Of a DNA stretch of 36,597 bases, positions 23,758-32,453 are shown in pieces (within the stretch, counting starts at the first letter, position 1; every line of letters starts with the position of its first letter). This DNA is from Helicobacteraceae bacterium. GTDB lineage: Bacteria > Campylobacterota > Campylobacteria > Campylobacterales > Sulfurimonadaceae. The translations under genes were made by a program, and so were the position numbers. The DNA lies in assembly GCA_015488775.1 (NCBI GenBank), contig WFNF01000039.1, positions 1 to 36,597 on the forward strand, read 5' to 3'. The notes beneath the pieces are model-generated. The model did not search any database, was not told the origin of the DNA, and saw nothing but the letters and a program-made list of their open reading frames with translations.

Positions 23758-24240
23758 ATGATACATCCAATAATGGTACATTTTGCAGTAGTTTTACCAA
23801 TAGTAAGTTTAGTTTTTATAGTTTTGTATGCTCTGAAACCAAGTGAGATTATGTCTAAAATCTCTACAAGAGTTTTAGTGTTTTCAGCTTTATCTATGGT
23901 CGCAGCGTGGTACAGTGGTGGTCTTGAAGGTAAGGAAGTGTATCCTTTATTGACAAGTGATGCCACTAAGATACTTATTTCTCATAAGACACTTGGTTTA
24001 TACTTAGCAATTGCTTTAGGTGTGACTGCCATAATCAAACTAATTGGTTGCAAGATAAATAATTTTAAATTGGAGATGTTAGCTTTAGTATTATTACTTG
24101 GTGTAGTTGCTACAACATTTTATCAAGGTAAAATGGGTGGGTCTTTAGTCTATGAGCATGGCGCACATGTTGAAAAATATAGTGATGGTTTAGATGCTAT
24201 AGATGAACTTAAAGAACTAGATGATGAGGATGAGGATTAA
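23758..24240 (+). CDS. DUF2231 membrane protein
   Basis: A 160-residue protein with about four membrane helices (residues 5-26, 37-52, 75-95, 105-122) and the DUF2231 ending YQGKMGGSLVYEHGAHVEKY, followed by an acidic tail. Conserved His residues at H3, H8 (IHPIMVHF), about H79 and H136 may bind heme or metal, but this is not shown for the family as far as I know. It has a strong RBS (AAGGAG, about 23742-23747). The gene sits upstream of the molybdoenzyme operon in the same direction, separated by 247 bp with its own promoter. Confidence 0.85.
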   Translation: MIHPIMVHFAVVLPIVSLVFIVLYALKPSEIMSKISTRVLVFSALSMVAAWYSGGLEGKEVYPLLTSDATKILISHKTLGLYLAIALGVTAIIKLIGCKINNFKLEMLALVLLLGVVATTFYQGKMGGSLVYEHGAHVEKYSDGLDAIDELKELDDEDED

Positions 24241-24482: not shown

Positions 24483-24487
24483 ATTTG

Positions 24488-25126
24488 ATGCAATTAGGTT
24501 TCTTAGTTGACCTTCATCTTTGTATGGGTTGTAAGGGCTGTGAAATCGCATGTAAGGTAGAGAATGAAGTTCCTCTATCTACATGGAGACTTCGTGTTAA
24601 ATATGTAGATATAGGTACTTTCCCGGAGACAAAACGTACGTTTACACCACTACGTTGTAATCACTGTGAACACGCACCATGTGAACGTATTTGTCCAGTT
24701 AGTGCACTACACTACATTGAAAATGGTATCGTTAATATCGATAAAGATAGATGTATTGGTTGTGCAAGTTGTGTTATGGCTTGTCCTTATGGAGCTATTT
24801 ATATAGATCCTGAAACTCAAACAGCAGATAAGTGTACATACTGTGCACACCGTATTGCGTCATCTATGATGCCTGCTTGTGTTGTAGCATGTCCTGTTGA
24901 AGCTAATATCTTTGGTGACTTAGATGATAAAACTTCTAATATATCAAGATATATTCAACAACATGAGTCAGATGTTCAGGTGCGTAAACCTGAAAAAGGT
25001 ACTGAGCCTCATCATTTCTATGTTGGTGCTGGTAGTGTTAACCTTAATCCTTTAGCTTCTAAAAGAGAAGAGGGATACAGTTTATTCAATAAAATTACAC
25101 ATCTTCCATTAGGAGGGCATCACTAA
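24488..25126 (+). CDS. Four-cluster Fe-S subunit of molybdopterin oxidoreductase (PsrB/NrfC type)
   Basis: A 212-residue electron-transfer subunit with four ferredoxin-type cysteine groups: CMGCKGCEIACK (C12, C15, C18, C22), CNHCEHAPCERICP, CIGCASCVMACP and CTYC...CVVACP. It has no signal of its own and is expected to be exported with the catalytic subunit. It should pass electrons between the NrfD-type membrane subunit and the molybdenum subunit. The ATG at 24488 is preferred over the TTG just before it. The last base of its stop codon is the first base of the next ATG (TAATG). Confidence 0.9.
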   Translation: MQLGFLVDLHLCMGCKGCEIACKVENEVPLSTWRLRVKYVDIGTFPETKRTFTPLRCNHCEHAPCERICPVSALHYIENGIVNIDKDRCIGCASCVMACPYGAIYIDPETQTADKCTYCAHRIASSMMPACVVACPVEANIFGDLDDKTSNISRYIQQHESDVQVRKPEKGTEPHHFYVGAGSVNLNPLASKREEGYSLFNKITHLPLGGHH

Positions 25127-26062: not shown

Positions 26063-29000
26063 ATGTATTTACAAAGTAGAAGAACATTTTTAAAAGGTGC
26101 TGCATTTACTGTTGCTGGTGCAGCGATTGCTAATGGAGTTTTTGCTACAGATTCTGTAGCAGAATCAGTAAGTGATTCAAAGTTTACGAACACACCTGAT
26201 ACTATCTCTTTTTATCCTGATATAAAAGAGTGGGATAGTTTTAAAGAGTTAGATGGTACAGACTGGAAGCGTGGTGGTATTAATCGCCATGGTGTAAGAA
26301 GTGAATCAAATCCAGATGGTATTCAAGTAAATGACTATACAATTGTTCCAACAGTTTGTTCAAACTGTGAAGCTGGTTGTGGTCTTACAGCGTGGGTAAA
26401 CAAAAACGAATTTGAAAAGGGAATCCTAACTGTACGTAAGTATATGGGTAATCCACTTCATACAGGTTCTCGCGGTCGTAACTGTGCAAAAGGTTATGCT
26501 GTAACATCTCAAATGTACGATCCAGATCGTATACCTTTCCCAATAAAAAGAGCTCCAGGTTCTAAACGTGGTGAGGGTAAATGGGTTCGTGTTACATGGG
26601 ATGATGCAATGGAAGTTATCGGTAAAAAAATGCACGATACACTTGCAAAAGGTGATGAAGTTTCTAAAAAACAAATCATGTACCATGTTGGTCGTCCAAA
26701 TGAGAATGGCTTTGGTCCTCGTGTGCCACAATCTCTTGGAATTGATGGATACAACTCTCACACAAATATCTGTTCTGCAGGTGCTCGTGAAGGTACTATT
26801 CAATGGGCAAATGATGATAGAAACTCACCAGATTGGGCTAATGCTAATCTAATATTTTTACAATCATCGCATGCAGCTGATGCAGGTCACTACTTTCAAC
26901 AATCAGCAGGTTTAATTGCTGAAGCAAGAAAACGTGGTTCTAAAATGGTTGTTATTGACCCTCGTATGTCAAACTCTGCTGGTATAGCAGATCTTTGGAT
27001 TCCAGCTTGGCCAGGAACTGAAGCAGCTCTTTATTTATACCTAGCAAATCGTATTTTAAATGAAAATAAAAAAGATGGTTCAGCTATAGTAGATCATAAA
27101 TATGTAAAAGAGTGGCTAAACTGGGACAGATTAATGGCAAATAAAGATTATCTTAAAAAGATGATTGGTTATGGTTATATCTCTAAAATGCCAAAAGATG
27201 ATTCTTATGAGTCATTTATTGAGTTAGCAAAAGAGCTTTATTCTCCTTATACAAAGGAATTTGTAGTTAAAGAGTGTAAACTTGAGGGTATGGAGTATAA
27301 ACTTGATGAGCTTTGGGAACTTTTTGTTCCAGCTGGTGCTAAAATAGCTTCATATCTATGGCGTGCAGGAGCAATCGGTCACCGTGGTGGTTGGATGAAT
27401 ACTCGTGCAGGTTTCTTACCTCTTGCTCTAGTTGGAGCTATGCGAGGAGATATTGGTGGAGTAGGTATGCACCACTGGCACGAAATTTCTGTAGCTGGTA
27501 AAGGTGACAAGGCCACTGTAGCTGGAAAACACCCTAGTAAAACTGATGCATGGAATGAGATTGCTTGGCCACCTGAGTATCCAATATCAACATATGAAAT
27601 GGGCTTCATGATGCCACAAATGATGATGGATGATGAATGGCACAATAAATGGACAGAAAAAGGTCTTAAAATTCCTAAATCTATTGCTGTATATGTTCCA
27701 AGAATGCACAATCCACTTTGGATTAATCCAGATGGTTTCAGATGGATGGAAGCACTTAAGCGTGAAGATAAATTTGAATTAACATTTAACCTATCTCCAA
27801 CTTGGTCTGAGACTAACTGGTACTGCGACTATGTACTTCCTGTTGGACTTGCTGGTGAAAGAAATGATCAACAATCAACTCCATCTAAACCTGAACAAAG
27901 AATTGAGTTCCGTCAAGCTGTTCTTCGTGTTGCAGCTGAAAAATCTGGTTGGAAAGCAAAAGATCCAACTCGTGCAACACTAGAAGCACATATGAAATAT
28001 GGTCTTGGTGAAGTATGGGAAGAGTCAGAATTCTGGCCAAACCTTATATTCCACCATGTAGATAAAGATGGTAAATTAGGTATTAGAGATTACTGGGCAA
28101 GTAAAAAAGATCCATCTCGTTGTGTTAGTGTTCCTGAGTATTTTGATGCTGCGTTAAGTCTTTTACCAAGACTTAAAGCTGCTGCAACAAGTGATTCTAG
28201 ATATAAAAATGAGGAGTATCCTGTATACTCTTATATTAGAGATCATGGTGCATGGACTGAGAAAACTAATGTGTACAAACCTCAAGAAGAAGAGCTTGAA
28301 TTTGATGGTACACATTATATTGCTCACGGTCATAAACATCATAAAGATGAAGTTCGCAAGGATGAATTTGGTGCATTATGGGTTAAGGATGGTGAGTTAG
28401 AGAAATCTATTGGTATTGATGTTGATGGTAAATTGCATGAAGGTTTTCATACATTAAGTAAAAAACTTGAGTTCTTCTCTGAGTGGTTAACTGAATGGAA
28501 ATGGCCAGAATATGCAGTACCTATATATCCAAGAAATGATGCTGAAAATGATAAAATGGTAGAACTTGTAACACAAGTACACCATAAATATATGAAAGCA
28601 GATAATGAATTTGCACTAAATACTATTTATCGTTTACCATATAACATTCACACACGTTCTGTGAATTCTAAACATCTTATGGAGATATCTCAAAACCATA
28701 ACCCTGTTTGGATTTATACAAAAGATGCTGAGAAACTTGGTATTAAACGTGGTGATGCTATTAAGGTTCAAATTGAAGATACACTTTCAGGTATTAAAAG
28801 TGGTTACTTTATTGCCATGGCTGTGCCAACTGAAGCAACTCGTCCAGGTGTTCTTGCATGTTCACATCACGCTGGTCGTTGGAAACTTCAAAATTCTGTT
28901 GATATCCCTGGATTTGAACACAGCTTAGGTATCATGAGTTTAGGTTCTCCTAAAGTATCTATGACAAATGATGGTAAAGTTGGAACTATGACAACTACTG

Positions 29001-29353
29001 AGGGAATTAAACCTCATAAAGCATGGCAGTTTAAAGAGTACAACAGAGACTTAGATGATATTTGGTGGAATGGACTCTCTGGCGCATGGCAAAATGCTGT
29101 AGCTCCAGTTCATCCAGACCCAGTTGCTGGTAATCATGGTTGGCACCAAAAAGTTATTATCTCTAAAGCTGGAGCGAATGATAAAATTGGTGATATTCAT
29201 GTAAATTATGAAAATAATTTTAAGGTTTATAAAGCATGGCAAGCACTAGCTCGTCCACTTACAGTAGGTGATCAATGGCGTCGTCCATATCACATTAAGC
29301 GTCCAGTGAAACCTAGTCAAAAAGCTTACAAAGTTGAGATTAAAGACGTTTAA
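26063..29353 (+). CDS. Tat-exported molybdopterin oxidoreductase catalytic subunit
   Basis: A 1096-residue DMSO-reductase-superfamily enzyme. A twin-arginine signal (SRRTFLK, residues 5-11, then a hydrophobic Ala/Gly-rich stretch) sends it to the periplasm. One 4Fe-4S site is formed by C99, C102, C106 and C141. C237 in HTNICSAGAREG is the likely molybdenum ligand, as in polysulfide, thiosulfate, tetrathionate and arsenate enzymes and unlike NarG (Asp) or DMSO reductase (Ser). The usual GFHTLSKKLEFFSEWL element lies near residue 800. A His-rich insert (HGHKHHK, about residues 754-760) is unusual. Substrate and direction are unknown; size and a TtrA/ArrA-like KRGEGKW sequence favour oxyanion or sulfur chemistry. 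Confidence 0.88.
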   Translation: MYLQSRRTFLKGAAFTVAGAAIANGVFATDSVAESVSDSKFTNTPDTISFYPDIKEWDSFKELDGTDWKRGGINRHGVRSESNPDGIQVNDYTIVPTVCSNCEAGCGLTAWVNKNEFEKGILTVRKYMGNPLHTGSRGRNCAKGYAVTSQMYDPDRIPFPIKRAPGSKRGEGKWVRVTWDDAMEVIGKKMHDTLAKGDEVSKKQIMYHVGRPNENGFGPRVPQSLGIDGYNSHTNICSAGAREGTIQWANDDRNSPDWANANLIFLQSSHAADAGHYFQQSAGLIAEARKRGSKMVVIDPRMSNSAGIADLWIPAWPGTEAALYLYLANRILNENKKDGSAIVDHKYVKEWLNWDRLMANKDYLKKMIGYGYISKMPKDDSYESFIELAKELYSPYTKEFVVKECKLEGMEYKLDELWELFVPAGAKIASYLWRAGAIGHRGGWMNTRAGFLPLALVGAMRGDIGGVGMHHWHEISVAGKGDKATVAGKHPSKTDAWNEIAWPPEYPISTYEMGFMMPQMMMDDEWHNKWTEKGLKIPKSIAVYVPRMHNPLWINPDGFRWMEALKREDKFELTFNLSPTWSETNWYCDYVLPVGLAGERNDQQSTPSKPEQRIEFRQAVLRVAAEKSGWKAKDPTRATLEAHMKYGLGEVWEESEFWPNLIFHHVDKDGKLGIRDYWASKKDPSRCVSVPEYFDAALSLLPRLKAAATSDSRYKNEEYPVYSYIRDHGAWTEKTNVYKPQEEELEFDGTHYIAHGHKHHKDEVRKDEFGALWVKDGELEKSIGIDVDGKLHEGFHTLSKKLEFFSEWLTEWKWPEYAVPIYPRNDAENDKMVELVTQVHHKYMKADNEFALNTIYRLPYNIHTRSVNSKHLMEISQNHNPVWIYTKDAEKLGIKRGDAIKVQIEDTLSGIKSGYFIAMAVPTEATRPGVLACSHHAGRWKLQNSVDIPGFEHSLGIMSLGSPKVSMTNDGKVGTMTTTEGIKPHKAWQFKEYNRDLDDIWWNGLSGAWQNAVAPVHPDPVAGNHGWHQKVIISKAGANDKIGDIHVNYENNFKVYKAWQALARPLTVGDQWRRPYHIKRPVKPSQKAYKVEIKDV

Positions 29354-29434: not shown

Positions 29435-30085
29435 ATGAATGATGAATTAAAACAAGAGCAGATTGCTCGTATAAATATATATGCACTCCTTTCAAGACTA
29501 ACAATGTCTGAAGTTGATGAAGGGCTATTAAAATCAATAGAAGAAGATGAAAATATGCTTTCATTTTTTCCAAGCTATGCTAAATGGAAAAAAAGAGATG
29601 AATATGATAGAAAACACTTGATTGAACAGTACCTCAATGTTGATTTTACTAACCTTTTTTTACTACACCTTATTCCGTATGAATCATTTTATACAAGAGA
29701 AGACCAGATGATGGAGACAGGTGGAGATAATCCTGTACAAGCTATATTTAATGCTTTTGAGTTTAGAGTTGAACTTGATAAAGCACGTGTTATGGCAGCA
29801 GATCACATAGGAATAGAGTTAGAGTTTATGTATGAGTTATGTAAAGCAGAACTAAAAGCTCTTGAAGATGGAGATTTAGAGATGGCAAAACAACTTGCCC
29901 AATTACAGTATGGATTTATGAGAGATCATATTGTAGAGTGGATGCCTATGTATTTAATAAATGTTAAAAATGAGTCAGGAACTGCTTTTTATTTTGATTT
30001 AGCTGATTTTGTTTTAGAGTTTATAATGAGTGACTTTCAATATTTAAGTGATTTAAAAGATAAAGAGTATAAATACATAGTATGA
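29435..30085 (+). CDS. TorD/DmsD-type chaperone for the molybdoenzyme
   Basis: A 216-residue all-helical cytoplasmic protein of the TorD family. It has the loop PYESFYTRED and the motif ADHIGIELEFMYELC, which corresponds to the conserved D-H-x2-E-L/F segment. Such chaperones bind the Tat signal of their own molybdoenzyme and hold it until the cofactor is inserted. Its place directly after the Tat-dependent catalytic gene makes that enzyme the expected client. It overlaps the next gene by 4 bp (ATGA). Confidence 0.88.
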   Translation: MNDELKQEQIARINIYALLSRLTMSEVDEGLLKSIEEDENMLSFFPSYAKWKKRDEYDRKHLIEQYLNVDFTNLFLLHLIPYESFYTREDQMMETGGDNPVQAIFNAFEFRVELDKARVMAADHIGIELEFMYELCKAELKALEDGDLEMAKQLAQLQYGFMRDHIVEWMPMYLINVKNESGTAFYFDLADFVLEFIMSDFQYLSDLKDKEYKYIV

Positions 30086-31182
30086 GTTTATTGACTTTAG
30101 ATGTTTCAAAATGTGTCCATACATCAAATAAATTTGCTATTTGTGATAAATGTGTTCAGTCTTGTCCGGTTGAGACAATCAACATTACTAATGGGCTTAT
30201 CTCTTTTACACCTAGTGAGTGTATCGGATGTGGCGGGTGTAATGCTGTATGTCCTACATCAGCATATGAACTAGATGAATTTAAGTCATTAAATTATGTA
30301 TTTGATTTTTTAGAGAATGATTTAGATCTTATTACTTGTAAAAGTGATCTTCCTTGTATTGCAGCACTTAGTGTTGAAGAACTATTAAGCTTAGCTCTAA
30401 TCTCTCCAAAGAGCTTAAAAGCAGACATTGGAACTTGTAATGAGTGTCCAATTGCTGAAAAAAATCTGCAAATAATTGAAGATAGAATTGAAGAGGTGAA
30501 TTTTGTTTTAGAAGCTATGGAGCAAACTAAATCTATATCTCTTGAAAATTTAGATATTGAAGAAGAGATTAAAGAAGTTGATGCACTTACAAGGCGAGAA
30601 CTTCTTTCTAAAACGGGATTAAAAAAAGCTGTTAGTATTAAGCAACGCTTTGAAAATAAAGTGGAAGCTGGTAATACTACTACTAAAGTTCATAATGTTA
30701 CAAGTGCTGATATTGCTAAAATAAAACAAAAAAGTATTCCAGATAAACGAAGTTTACTTTTAATGGCTATGAAAAGAGCTGTGGTTCCTACAAAGTTTCA
30801 TACTATTGACATTGCAGATATTAGTTTTATATCGCAAAAAGATTTAGATGAATCAACATGTACAAACTGCCAAATGTGTTACAGAATTTGTCCTACAGGA
30901 GCACTTTCTTCTGATGGAAGAGCTTCAGTTATTAATTTTAATCCACTTTCGTGTGTGCAGTGTCATAGCTGTCATGATGTTTGTGAGCCTGATGCTCTGA
31001 CACTAAGAAATACTTTTTCGCTCTCAAGCTTTTTTGATCCAAAGATTGAAACACTTGTACGTTTTAATATTAAACGTTGTGAAGAGTGTGGTAACTTTTT
31101 TGACTATCATGGTGGTGAGATTTTATGTCGAAGATGTATTATTGAAGAGGATGATACTAGAGAACTATGGGGGATTAAATAA
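30082..31182 (+). CDS. 24-cysteine soluble Fe-S protein in the molybdoenzyme operon
   Basis: A 366-residue cytoplasmic polyferredoxin-like protein without signal or membrane segment. Six groups of four cysteines can be drawn: C11/21/24/28, C47/50/53/57, C86/92/119/122, C260/263/266/270, C291/294/297/301 and C333/336/349/352. Groups 1, 2, 4 and 5 look like 4Fe-4S sites; group 3 is atypical; group 6 looks like a zinc ribbon or rubredoxin-like site. A long charged helical middle (about 125-235) separates the two halves. Being cytoplasmic, it cannot be the periplasmic electron carrier. A role in Fe-S or cofactor loading of the enzyme, or in cytoplasmic electron transfer, is inference. Confidence 0.82.
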   Translation: MSLLTLDVSKCVHTSNKFAICDKCVQSCPVETINITNGLISFTPSECIGCGGCNAVCPTSAYELDEFKSLNYVFDFLENDLDLITCKSDLPCIAALSVEELLSLALISPKSLKADIGTCNECPIAEKNLQIIEDRIEEVNFVLEAMEQTKSISLENLDIEEEIKEVDALTRRELLSKTGLKKAVSIKQRFENKVEAGNTTTKVHNVTSADIAKIKQKSIPDKRSLLLMAMKRAVVPTKFHTIDIADISFISQKDLDESTCTNCQMCYRICPTGALSSDGRASVINFNPLSCVQCHSCHDVCEPDALTLRNTFSLSSFFDPKIETLVRFNIKRCEECGNFFDYHGGEILCRRCIIEEDDTRELWGIK

Positions 31183-31607
31183 TGGATGAGGATATGCAAG
31201 ATATTGATACAATGAATTCTAATAATGAGATAAAAAATGAGACAAAACTTTATGGACTAATAGCAGAGTATGCAAGTTCTAATCGTTTGTTTGTTATGTT
31301 TAACAAACTTATTAAAAGTAAAAATAGTGATGCTATGATGATTCCAATGAATATTAGAGAGGATGATTTTTACTTTACACTTTCAAATATGAAAAAGTCT
31401 CATGTTAATGGAGCGTATATTGCATTAGAGTACCAAGAGAGAGCAGTAGAACTTTTAGATGAAACAGATGAATTTGTGCAGGTTTATAATAAATGTGATT
31501 TCGTTGTACGTGATGGTGAGCGGCTTCTTGGTACTTACTTAGAAAAGAATGGCGCTTTGGTTGGTGAAGCTTTAGTAGAAGAGATATACAAACAGTTTAT
31601 AAAATAA
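31182..31607 (+). CDS. Stand-alone degenerate AroE substrate-domain-like protein
   Basis: A 141-residue protein. After an acidic N-terminal tail, residues about 22-128 follow the pattern of the shikimate dehydrogenase (AroE) N-terminal domain: a KLYGLIAE strand, then MIPMNI, NGAYIALEYQERAVELLDE (compare NVT-P-K-E in AroE) and DGERLLGTYLEKNGALVG (compare DGRL-G-NTDG-G). The catalytic Lys is Q85 and the catalytic Asp position is E121, and the NADP-binding domain is absent. So it should not be an active dehydrogenase. The stop codon of the Fe-S gene overlaps its ATG (TAATG), so it is translationally coupled. The fold call is from motif alignment by eye. Confidence 0.65.
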   Translation: MDEDMQDIDTMNSNNEIKNETKLYGLIAEYASSNRLFVMFNKLIKSKNSDAMMIPMNIREDDFYFTLSNMKKSHVNGAYIALEYQERAVELLDETDEFVQVYNKCDFVVRDGERLLGTYLEKNGALVGEALVEEIYKQFIK

Positions 31608-31619
31608 AGGAAAATTATT

Positions 31620-32072
31620 ATGAATATGAAAGATTTAAATGAACTCAGAGGTGAGTTTGAACAGATGCAACAACAGATTTGTTCTGATGATAGTTGTGAT
31701 ACGGATGCACCTGAAGATTATCCTGATTATCTTAAGGCTATTTATTCAGAAATTATGCCTCCTCAAAAGAGTGGTATTTACTTCTCAAGATGGGATTTAA
31801 AAAGAATGGCTGAGCAACTTGACGAGTCTTTTGCTATTGATGTTCGTGAGAGAATGTTTCAAAAGTTTATGCAGTGGGTTGCAACTCCTGATGATTTTAA
31901 ATCTGTGATTGAATGTTTTAGTGAAAATATGGATTTTAAAAGTGAAATTTATAAGGAATATTCACAAAAATACCCTGCTACAAAAGAGATTTTTGATGTT
32001 AAGATAGAGAAGGTAGAAAATGCCAAACGCTATTTTGAAAAGGTTTATAATGAGTTTTTTACTGAGCATTAG
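31620..32072 (+). CDS. Unknown acidic helical protein, 150 aa
   Basis: I do not recognise this family. It is soluble, largely helical and acidic, with C21 and C26 in a CSDDSC motif near the N-terminus, a central SGIYFSRWDLKRMAEQL segment, and a charged C-terminal helix. It follows the AroE-like gene by 12 bp, with an AAAGGAAA RBS, and is the last gene of the molybdoenzyme operon. The operon position suggests an accessory role for the enzyme, nothing more. Confidence 0.75.
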   Translation: MNMKDLNELRGEFEQMQQQICSDDSCDTDAPEDYPDYLKAIYSEIMPPQKSGIYFSRWDLKRMAEQLDESFAIDVRERMFQKFMQWVATPDDFKSVIECFSENMDFKSEIYKEYSQKYPATKEIFDVKIEKVENAKRYFEKVYNEFFTEH

Positions 32073-32095
32073 GGAAGACTTTTAATAGTCTACCC
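32072..32095. terminator. Possible two-way terminator between convergent genes
   Basis: GGGAAGACT (32073-32081) and AGTCTACCC (32087-32095) form a nine-position stem with one A-A mismatch and a short T/A-rich loop. It sits exactly between the convergent ends of the molybdoenzyme operon and the Bat-type operon. Confidence 0.45.
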
Positions 32096-32453
32096 CCAAT
32101 AAATCCTCCTCTACATCATATTTATCTGAATCCTCTTTTGTAAAATGAGTCAAAAACTTTGTTAGATTTTGAATATCATCTTTTGAAAGGGCATTTACAA
32201 ATGTAAACATTATCTCTTGTTTTTGTGTTGTTGCTATACCTTTTTTAAAGTTATTAATCTTATTTGTAAGGTACTTTTGTTCTTTATTTGCAAGACTAGG
32301 ATAATAGTTACTTCCTTCGGCATTTGTACCATGGCAATTTGCGCATCCATTAGCATAGTATATTGTTTTTCCTTTCTCGTAGCTATTATCTTCTTTTGCA
32401 AAGAGATTTAGTGTGTGTAGTATAAGTAGTATTGTTAAGAAAGTAAGTTTCAT
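32082..32453 (-). CDS. Small periplasmic cytochrome c
   Basis: A 123-residue protein with a signal peptide (cleavage near LFA-KED) and one heme c site, CANCH (C37, C40, H41), in a class I monoheme cytochrome fold; a Met in EIMFTF (about residue 84) could be the sixth ligand. Its ATG overlaps the stop of batD by one base (TAATG), so it is translated as part of the Bat-type operon rather than with the convergent molybdoenzyme genes. That link is unexpected; it could be a client of, or electron carrier for, the Bat system. Confidence 0.85.
   Translation of the reverse strand: MKLTFLTILLILHTLNLFAKEDNSYEKGKTIYYANGCANCHGTNAEGSNYYPSLANKEQKYLTNKINNFKKGIATTQKQEIMFTFVNALSKDDIQNLTKFLTHFTKEDSDKYDVEEDLLGVDY

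Follow-up and report, generated by a model that had tools for sequence, protein, structure and literature searches.

A shikimate dehydrogenase-like pseudoenzyme domain linked to a molybdoenzyme in the Sulfurimonadaceae

The closest described relatives of the protein considered here are the shikimate dehydrogenases AroE and YdiB, which combine the domains PF08501 and PF01488. The AroE-like protein, AroEL, has the same fold, and its full-length relatives keep both domains. It differs from AroE in that the catalytic lysine is absent, the catalytic aspartate is not kept and the NADP domain is degenerate or missing, while the family has a new invariant motif, PMNIREDD, and a gene linked to a molybdoenzyme. 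Shikimate dehydrogenase domains have likewise been reused, without apparent catalysis and for protein–protein interaction, in the AROM-derived fungal repressors QutR, qa-1S and GaaX (PMC6528562); these, however, are eukaryotic multidomain transcription regulators with no molybdoenzyme link, and no common descent of the two instances of reuse is known. TorD, NarJ, DmsD and other redox enzyme maturation proteins resemble AroEL in being products of dedicated accessory genes in molybdoenzyme operons, and one TorD is encoded in the block described below, but AroEL has the AroE fold and not the all-helical fold of TorD or the ferredoxin-type fold of NapD. NapF, which carries four labile 4Fe-4S clusters, acts in the cytosol to mature NapA, and enzymes of this class commonly have dedicated chaperones (PMC10609526). 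AroEL is unrelated to NapF; it is the neighbouring ferredoxin-like protein that recalls NapF, having four 4Fe-4S motifs and a gene adjoining the chaperone gene for a Tat-exported molybdoenzyme, a likeness of motif count and context rather than of established homology. Among the papers searched, none links shikimate dehydrogenase to polysulfide reductase, or to Sulfurimonas together with molybdopterin.

The window analysed is the 36,597-nucleotide contig WFNF01000039.1 (assembly GCA_015488775.1) of a Helicobacteraceae bacterium placed in the Sulfurimonadaceae. It carries the genes of an FeS-NrfD-MopB molybdoenzyme followed by a four-gene block that includes AroEL:

24485..25126, + strand: 4Fe-4S electron-transfer subunit, TtrB/PsrB-like (assigned by models); adjoins MopB in L155–L170
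25126..26049, + strand: NrfD/PsrC-like membrane subunit (PF03916, E = 9.8e-16)
26063..29353, + strand: MopB molybdopterin oxidoreductase, 1096 residues, with a Tat-like signal; the presumed client (assigned by models)
29435..30085, + strand: TorD/NarJ-family chaperone, 216 residues (PF02613, E = 1.4e-15; TorD model, E = 2.5e-16, under its cut-off)
30082..31182, + strand: ferredoxin-like protein, 366 residues, four 4Fe-4S cysteine motifs and a CxxC...CxxC tail
31182..31607, + strand: AroEL short form, AroE substrate-binding domain plus C-terminal helix, 141 residues (profiles, AlphaFold2 model, dN/dS)
31620..32072, + strand: D150, a small conserved protein of no recognised family, 150 residues; the fourth block member

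A 22-bit match of the open reading frame downstream of AroEL to PF00621 (RhoGEF) is under the cut-off and was taken as spurious. Behind the block lies a convergent c-type cytochrome gene (32082–32453, − strand), and the gene for the FeS subunit is immediately preceded by one for a DUF2231 membrane protein (23758–24240, + strand). The presumed client is near-universal in the sampled Sulfurimonadaceae, and polysulfide reductase homologues have been noted in all sequenced Sulfurimonas (PMC4584964). None of the curated models was passed: MopB scores 117.6 bits against PhsA (cut-off 694) and 49 against TtrA (1750), and the FeS subunit 205 bits against TtrB (416). The closest solved relative of MopB, matched over residues 95–340 only, is the Thermus polysulfide/thiosulfate reductase 2vpw.

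The preliminary description of this DNA had recognised an AroE-like substrate-binding domain whose ATG overlaps the stop codon of the Fe-S gene. The overlap is of a single base, shared by the ATG and the TAA of gene 30082–31182, and the domain assignment is upheld by several matches. AroEL matches PF08501 (Shikimate_dh_N) with E = 1.4e-4 and 22.4 bits, under the curated cut-off of 27 bits, which is exceeded by its relative L135 with 31.4 bits. Nine NCBIfam AroE models also match AroEL, with E-values of 1e-6 to 1e-2. The AroE of Aquifex, 2hk9, is found by a profile of the N-domains of 35 relatives (E = 2.1e-5) and by a profile of the full-length relatives (E = 4.5e-8). The AlphaFold2 model (pLDDT 87.7, pTM 0.80) has an α/β AroE fold: its best 50 matches in the PDB all belong to the AroE/YdiB/SDH family, the top one with E = 1.1e-8, and among these 50 many superimpose at about 1.5–1.7 Å over some 100 columns. 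The profile matches and the predicted fold together rule out a chance likeness, and no match was obtained to PF02613, the all-helical TorD fold. The 141-residue reading frame ends without an NADP-binding Rossmann domain and its GAGGxxRA loop, as had been proposed. AroEL is thus an AroE-fold homologue consisting of the substrate-binding domain only. It is not the sole AroE of the genome, since contig C51 carries a separate full-length AroE frame of 281 residues; AroEL is therefore not the pathway enzyme.

The notable positions were located by alignment and, for the C-terminal helix, by modelling:

31344..31367, + strand: codons 55–62, family signature PMNIREDD, around strand 2 and helix 2 (alignment)
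31434..31436, + strand: codon 85, Gln at the position of the AroE catalytic Lys (alignment)
31494..31499, + strand: codons 105–106, invariant Cys-Asp at the V-N-T substrate-binding stretch of AroE (alignment)
31542..31544, + strand: codon 121, Glu at the catalytic Asp position (sequence, alignment)
31563..31601, + strand: codons 128–140, C-terminal helix, probably retained from a full-length form (AlphaFold2 model, tails of clade members)

The replacement of both catalytic residues, noted from the single sequence, bears up in the family. Gln85 aligns with the catalytic lysine, and lysine is found there in none of 35 family members, full-length N-domains included, so that loss of the catalytic lysine is shown across the family. 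Glu121 is placed at the catalytic aspartate through the motif GYNTD/GTYLE; this position is variable among the relatives and the glutamate is not conserved. Pro55, Met56, Asn57, Ile58, Arg59, Asp61 and Asp62 are invariant in the 35-row alignment, and the signature N-I/V-x-x-D/E-D/H/E-F/L recurs in 130 of 135 collected sequences, the five misses including one empty record and one wrongly picked ferredoxin reading frame.

The invariant Cys-Asp pair and an invariant glutamate in the former pocket region could indicate a small-molecule sensor: a ligand other than shikimate would occupy the old pocket, and the protein would regulate how active, or how strongly expressed, the molybdoenzyme system is; QutR, qa-1S and GaaX offer a precedent for non-catalytic reuse of the domain in regulation (PMC6528562). 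Yet the lysine, asparagine and threonine of the AroE pocket are not kept, and AroEL has no DNA-binding or signalling domain. Moreover, conservation is highest in the stretch PMNIREDDFYFT, which is not known as a substrate-binding motif of AroE. We consider a sensor unlikely.

Comparison of the window gene with five relatives gave dN/dS values of 0.07–0.16, synonymous divergence being near or above saturation in some of these pairs; less diverged pairs among the relatives fall below 0.1. Purifying selection on the short form is strong.

A scan of public genomes identified 80 AroEL loci in Sulfurimonas and other Campylobacterales. The close relatives are mostly of 139–159 residues, and a second large group, of about 250–280 residues, runs on into an AroE-like C-domain. 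A model of one full-length relative (pLDDT 92.1) matches complete shikimate dehydrogenases over its whole length with E = 4.6e-16. These longer proteins are not fusions with the 150-residue protein encoded downstream, because the AroE-like C-domain is present and the 150-residue gene stands separately behind it. Since these relatives keep the C-domain and the full-length model matches complete enzymes, the window protein is a shortened form of a full-length, AroE-derived pseudoenzyme family. The term stand-alone domain, used in the preliminary description, accordingly fits the 141-residue form, but not a family that includes full-length AroE-like pseudoenzymes.

In most of the full-length relatives the NADP loop is altered or degenerate to varying degrees; the full-length members of family f4, together with L133, keep a near-normal GAGxxA loop and give weak matches to PF01488, and these proteins may therefore retain a role linked to nucleotides. 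These features would also suit a residual enzyme, with full-length relatives binding nicotinamide nucleotide and reducing some substrate and the short form a decaying remnant. Such a reading is very improbable, as none of the 35 aligned members has the catalytic lysine, and the short form, far from decaying, is strongly selected and persists in whole genera.

Was the NADP domain lost once or repeatedly? On a tree of the partner proteins TorD and ferredoxin (96 loci), built by a quick method and with some long branches meeting, the short form needs seven changes, of which starred branches force at least six; for the full-length label at least five are needed. The counts by themselves give no direction. 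Regain of the same domain being unlikely, repeated loss is the natural reading, and the protein was probably shortened several times over. In the second of two versions of a tail comparison, which used 14-residue windows and the nearest full-length relatives only, the short-form tails of L124, L127 and L131 (f6) match the C-terminal region of the full-length proteins and those of L017, L020, L024 and L104, from the window clade, match its extreme end, and in no case did any of 500 shuffles do as well. For the window clade, no significant match to the C-terminus had emerged from the first version, which used 24-residue windows. The tail of the window protein does not itself match the full-length C-terminus; its best match is to a different helix (28, with 3.8% of shuffles as good), and it is for this reason assigned through its relatives. 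A C-terminal origin of the helix is unsupported in g14, where two of three tails match an earlier helix. The tail sequences suggest that in the f6 and window-clade lineages the NADP domain was excised internally and the C-terminal helix kept.

The order TorD-ferredoxin-AroEL-D150 is kept across the Sulfurimonadaceae and in families f4, f6, f7, f17, f18 and f22, and in many genomes MopB with its preceding FeS and NrfD subunits lies directly upstream. Homologues do not always sit beside the molybdoenzyme: in most Sulfurimonas the block is elsewhere in the genome, with FeS, NrfD and MopB still together in the loci inspected, and f23 retains all five genes at scattered positions. In the f23 loci L119, L120 and L123 AroEL lies directly behind dnaJ, at a distance from the molybdoenzyme and from the other block genes. 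In five f18 loci (L145, L146, L149, L150 and L151) a small cytochrome c-like gene adjoins TorD. MopB, TorD, ferredoxin and D150 are all present in genus g55 (L147, L148) and in L161 (f21), and no AroEL was found between ferredoxin and D150 in these three loci. AroEL is thus not strictly required by the enzyme, being either dispensable or replaceable.

A second molybdoenzyme system was seen in loci L137, L138, L140, L141, L142 and L143. In L138, L140, L141 and L143 a MopB gene lies near one of rhodanese type (the domains were checked for L141), and nearby are genes for an LRV-repeat protein, a D150 paralogue of about 120 residues and a NUBPL-type Fe-S carrier ATPase. AroEL was looked for in this system and none was found.

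Wherever the block is intact, the ferredoxin-like gene is directly upstream of AroEL. This adjacency, and the stop/start overlap in the window, would be in keeping with AroEL as a partner of the ferredoxin-like protein, structural or stabilising, that takes part in cytoplasmic electron transfer rather than in enzyme maturation. We regard this as improbable: MopB, which bears a Tat-like signal, comes with FeS and NrfD subunits of its own and so has no need of the ferredoxin as a periplasmic electron carrier, and the same block encodes TorD, a maturation chaperone.

The proposed link to the molybdoenzyme is borne out by co-occurrence as well as by the conserved block. Among 200 genomes of the family, with MopB scored as present at E < 1e-100, AroEL is found in 171 of 179 MopB-bearing and in 5 of 21 MopB-less genomes (Fisher's test, 7e-14, ignoring the shared ancestry of the genomes). 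By hand tally, 171 genomes have both, eight MopB only, five AroEL only and 16 neither; the listing does not name four of the 24 genomes scored as lacking AroEL, and these four were deduced from the match table. In a sample of 299 genomes of the order, MopB at the same threshold accompanies AroEL in 73 of 77 genomes, two matches resembling true AroE having been excluded and the four MopB-less exceptions being draft assemblies; this count, too, is uncorrected for phylogeny. A further 34 genomes have MopB only, many of them from f18 and f17; the f18 and f17 loci inspected carry a divergent short AroEL. The homologues are almost confined to MopB-bearing genomes rather than spread among genomes without the molybdoenzyme. 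AroEL is thus shown to be linked to, and to co-occur with, one molybdoenzyme.

Overall, we think it probable that AroEL is an AroE-derived pseudoenzyme without catalytic activity that helps, in the cytoplasm, to mature or assemble the FeS-NrfD-MopB molybdoenzyme. The location, the binding partner and the maturation role are inferred, the first because no signal peptide is seen, and nothing in the 141-residue form points by itself to a chaperone. On this proposal AroEL would descend from shikimate dehydrogenase with loss of catalysis, and in the window lineage with loss of the whole NADP-binding domain, the substrate-binding domain being reused as a binding module. It would work in the cytoplasm with the TorD chaperone, the four-cluster ferredoxin-like protein and D150, the block maturing a single Tat-exported molybdoenzyme ahead of export. 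Its likeliest mode of action would be to hold the ferredoxin or the folding catalytic subunit while clusters or cofactor are inserted, in the manner of NapF and NarJ-type factors. The occurrence of a D150 paralogue beside a NUBPL-type ATPase and a second molybdoenzyme fits such a role, and the analogy with NapF and the dedicated chaperones suggests that the block is most likely a module for maturation in which AroEL serves as the binding module.

More tentatively, and a little short of what we would call probable, the shikimate dehydrogenase fold may have founded a separate class of metalloenzyme maturation factors. On that view the NADP domain would have been lost by several independent excisions, since nothing beyond the former substrate-binding domain is needed. 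The Sulfurimonadaceae play a major part in sulfur cycling at vents and redoxclines. Proteins of the AroEL type could easily be misannotated as shikimate dehydrogenase, and a single gene neighbourhood spans the series from full-length pseudoenzyme to single domain. If the proposal is true, an unexpected fold would be added to the dedicated assembly factors of molybdoenzymes.
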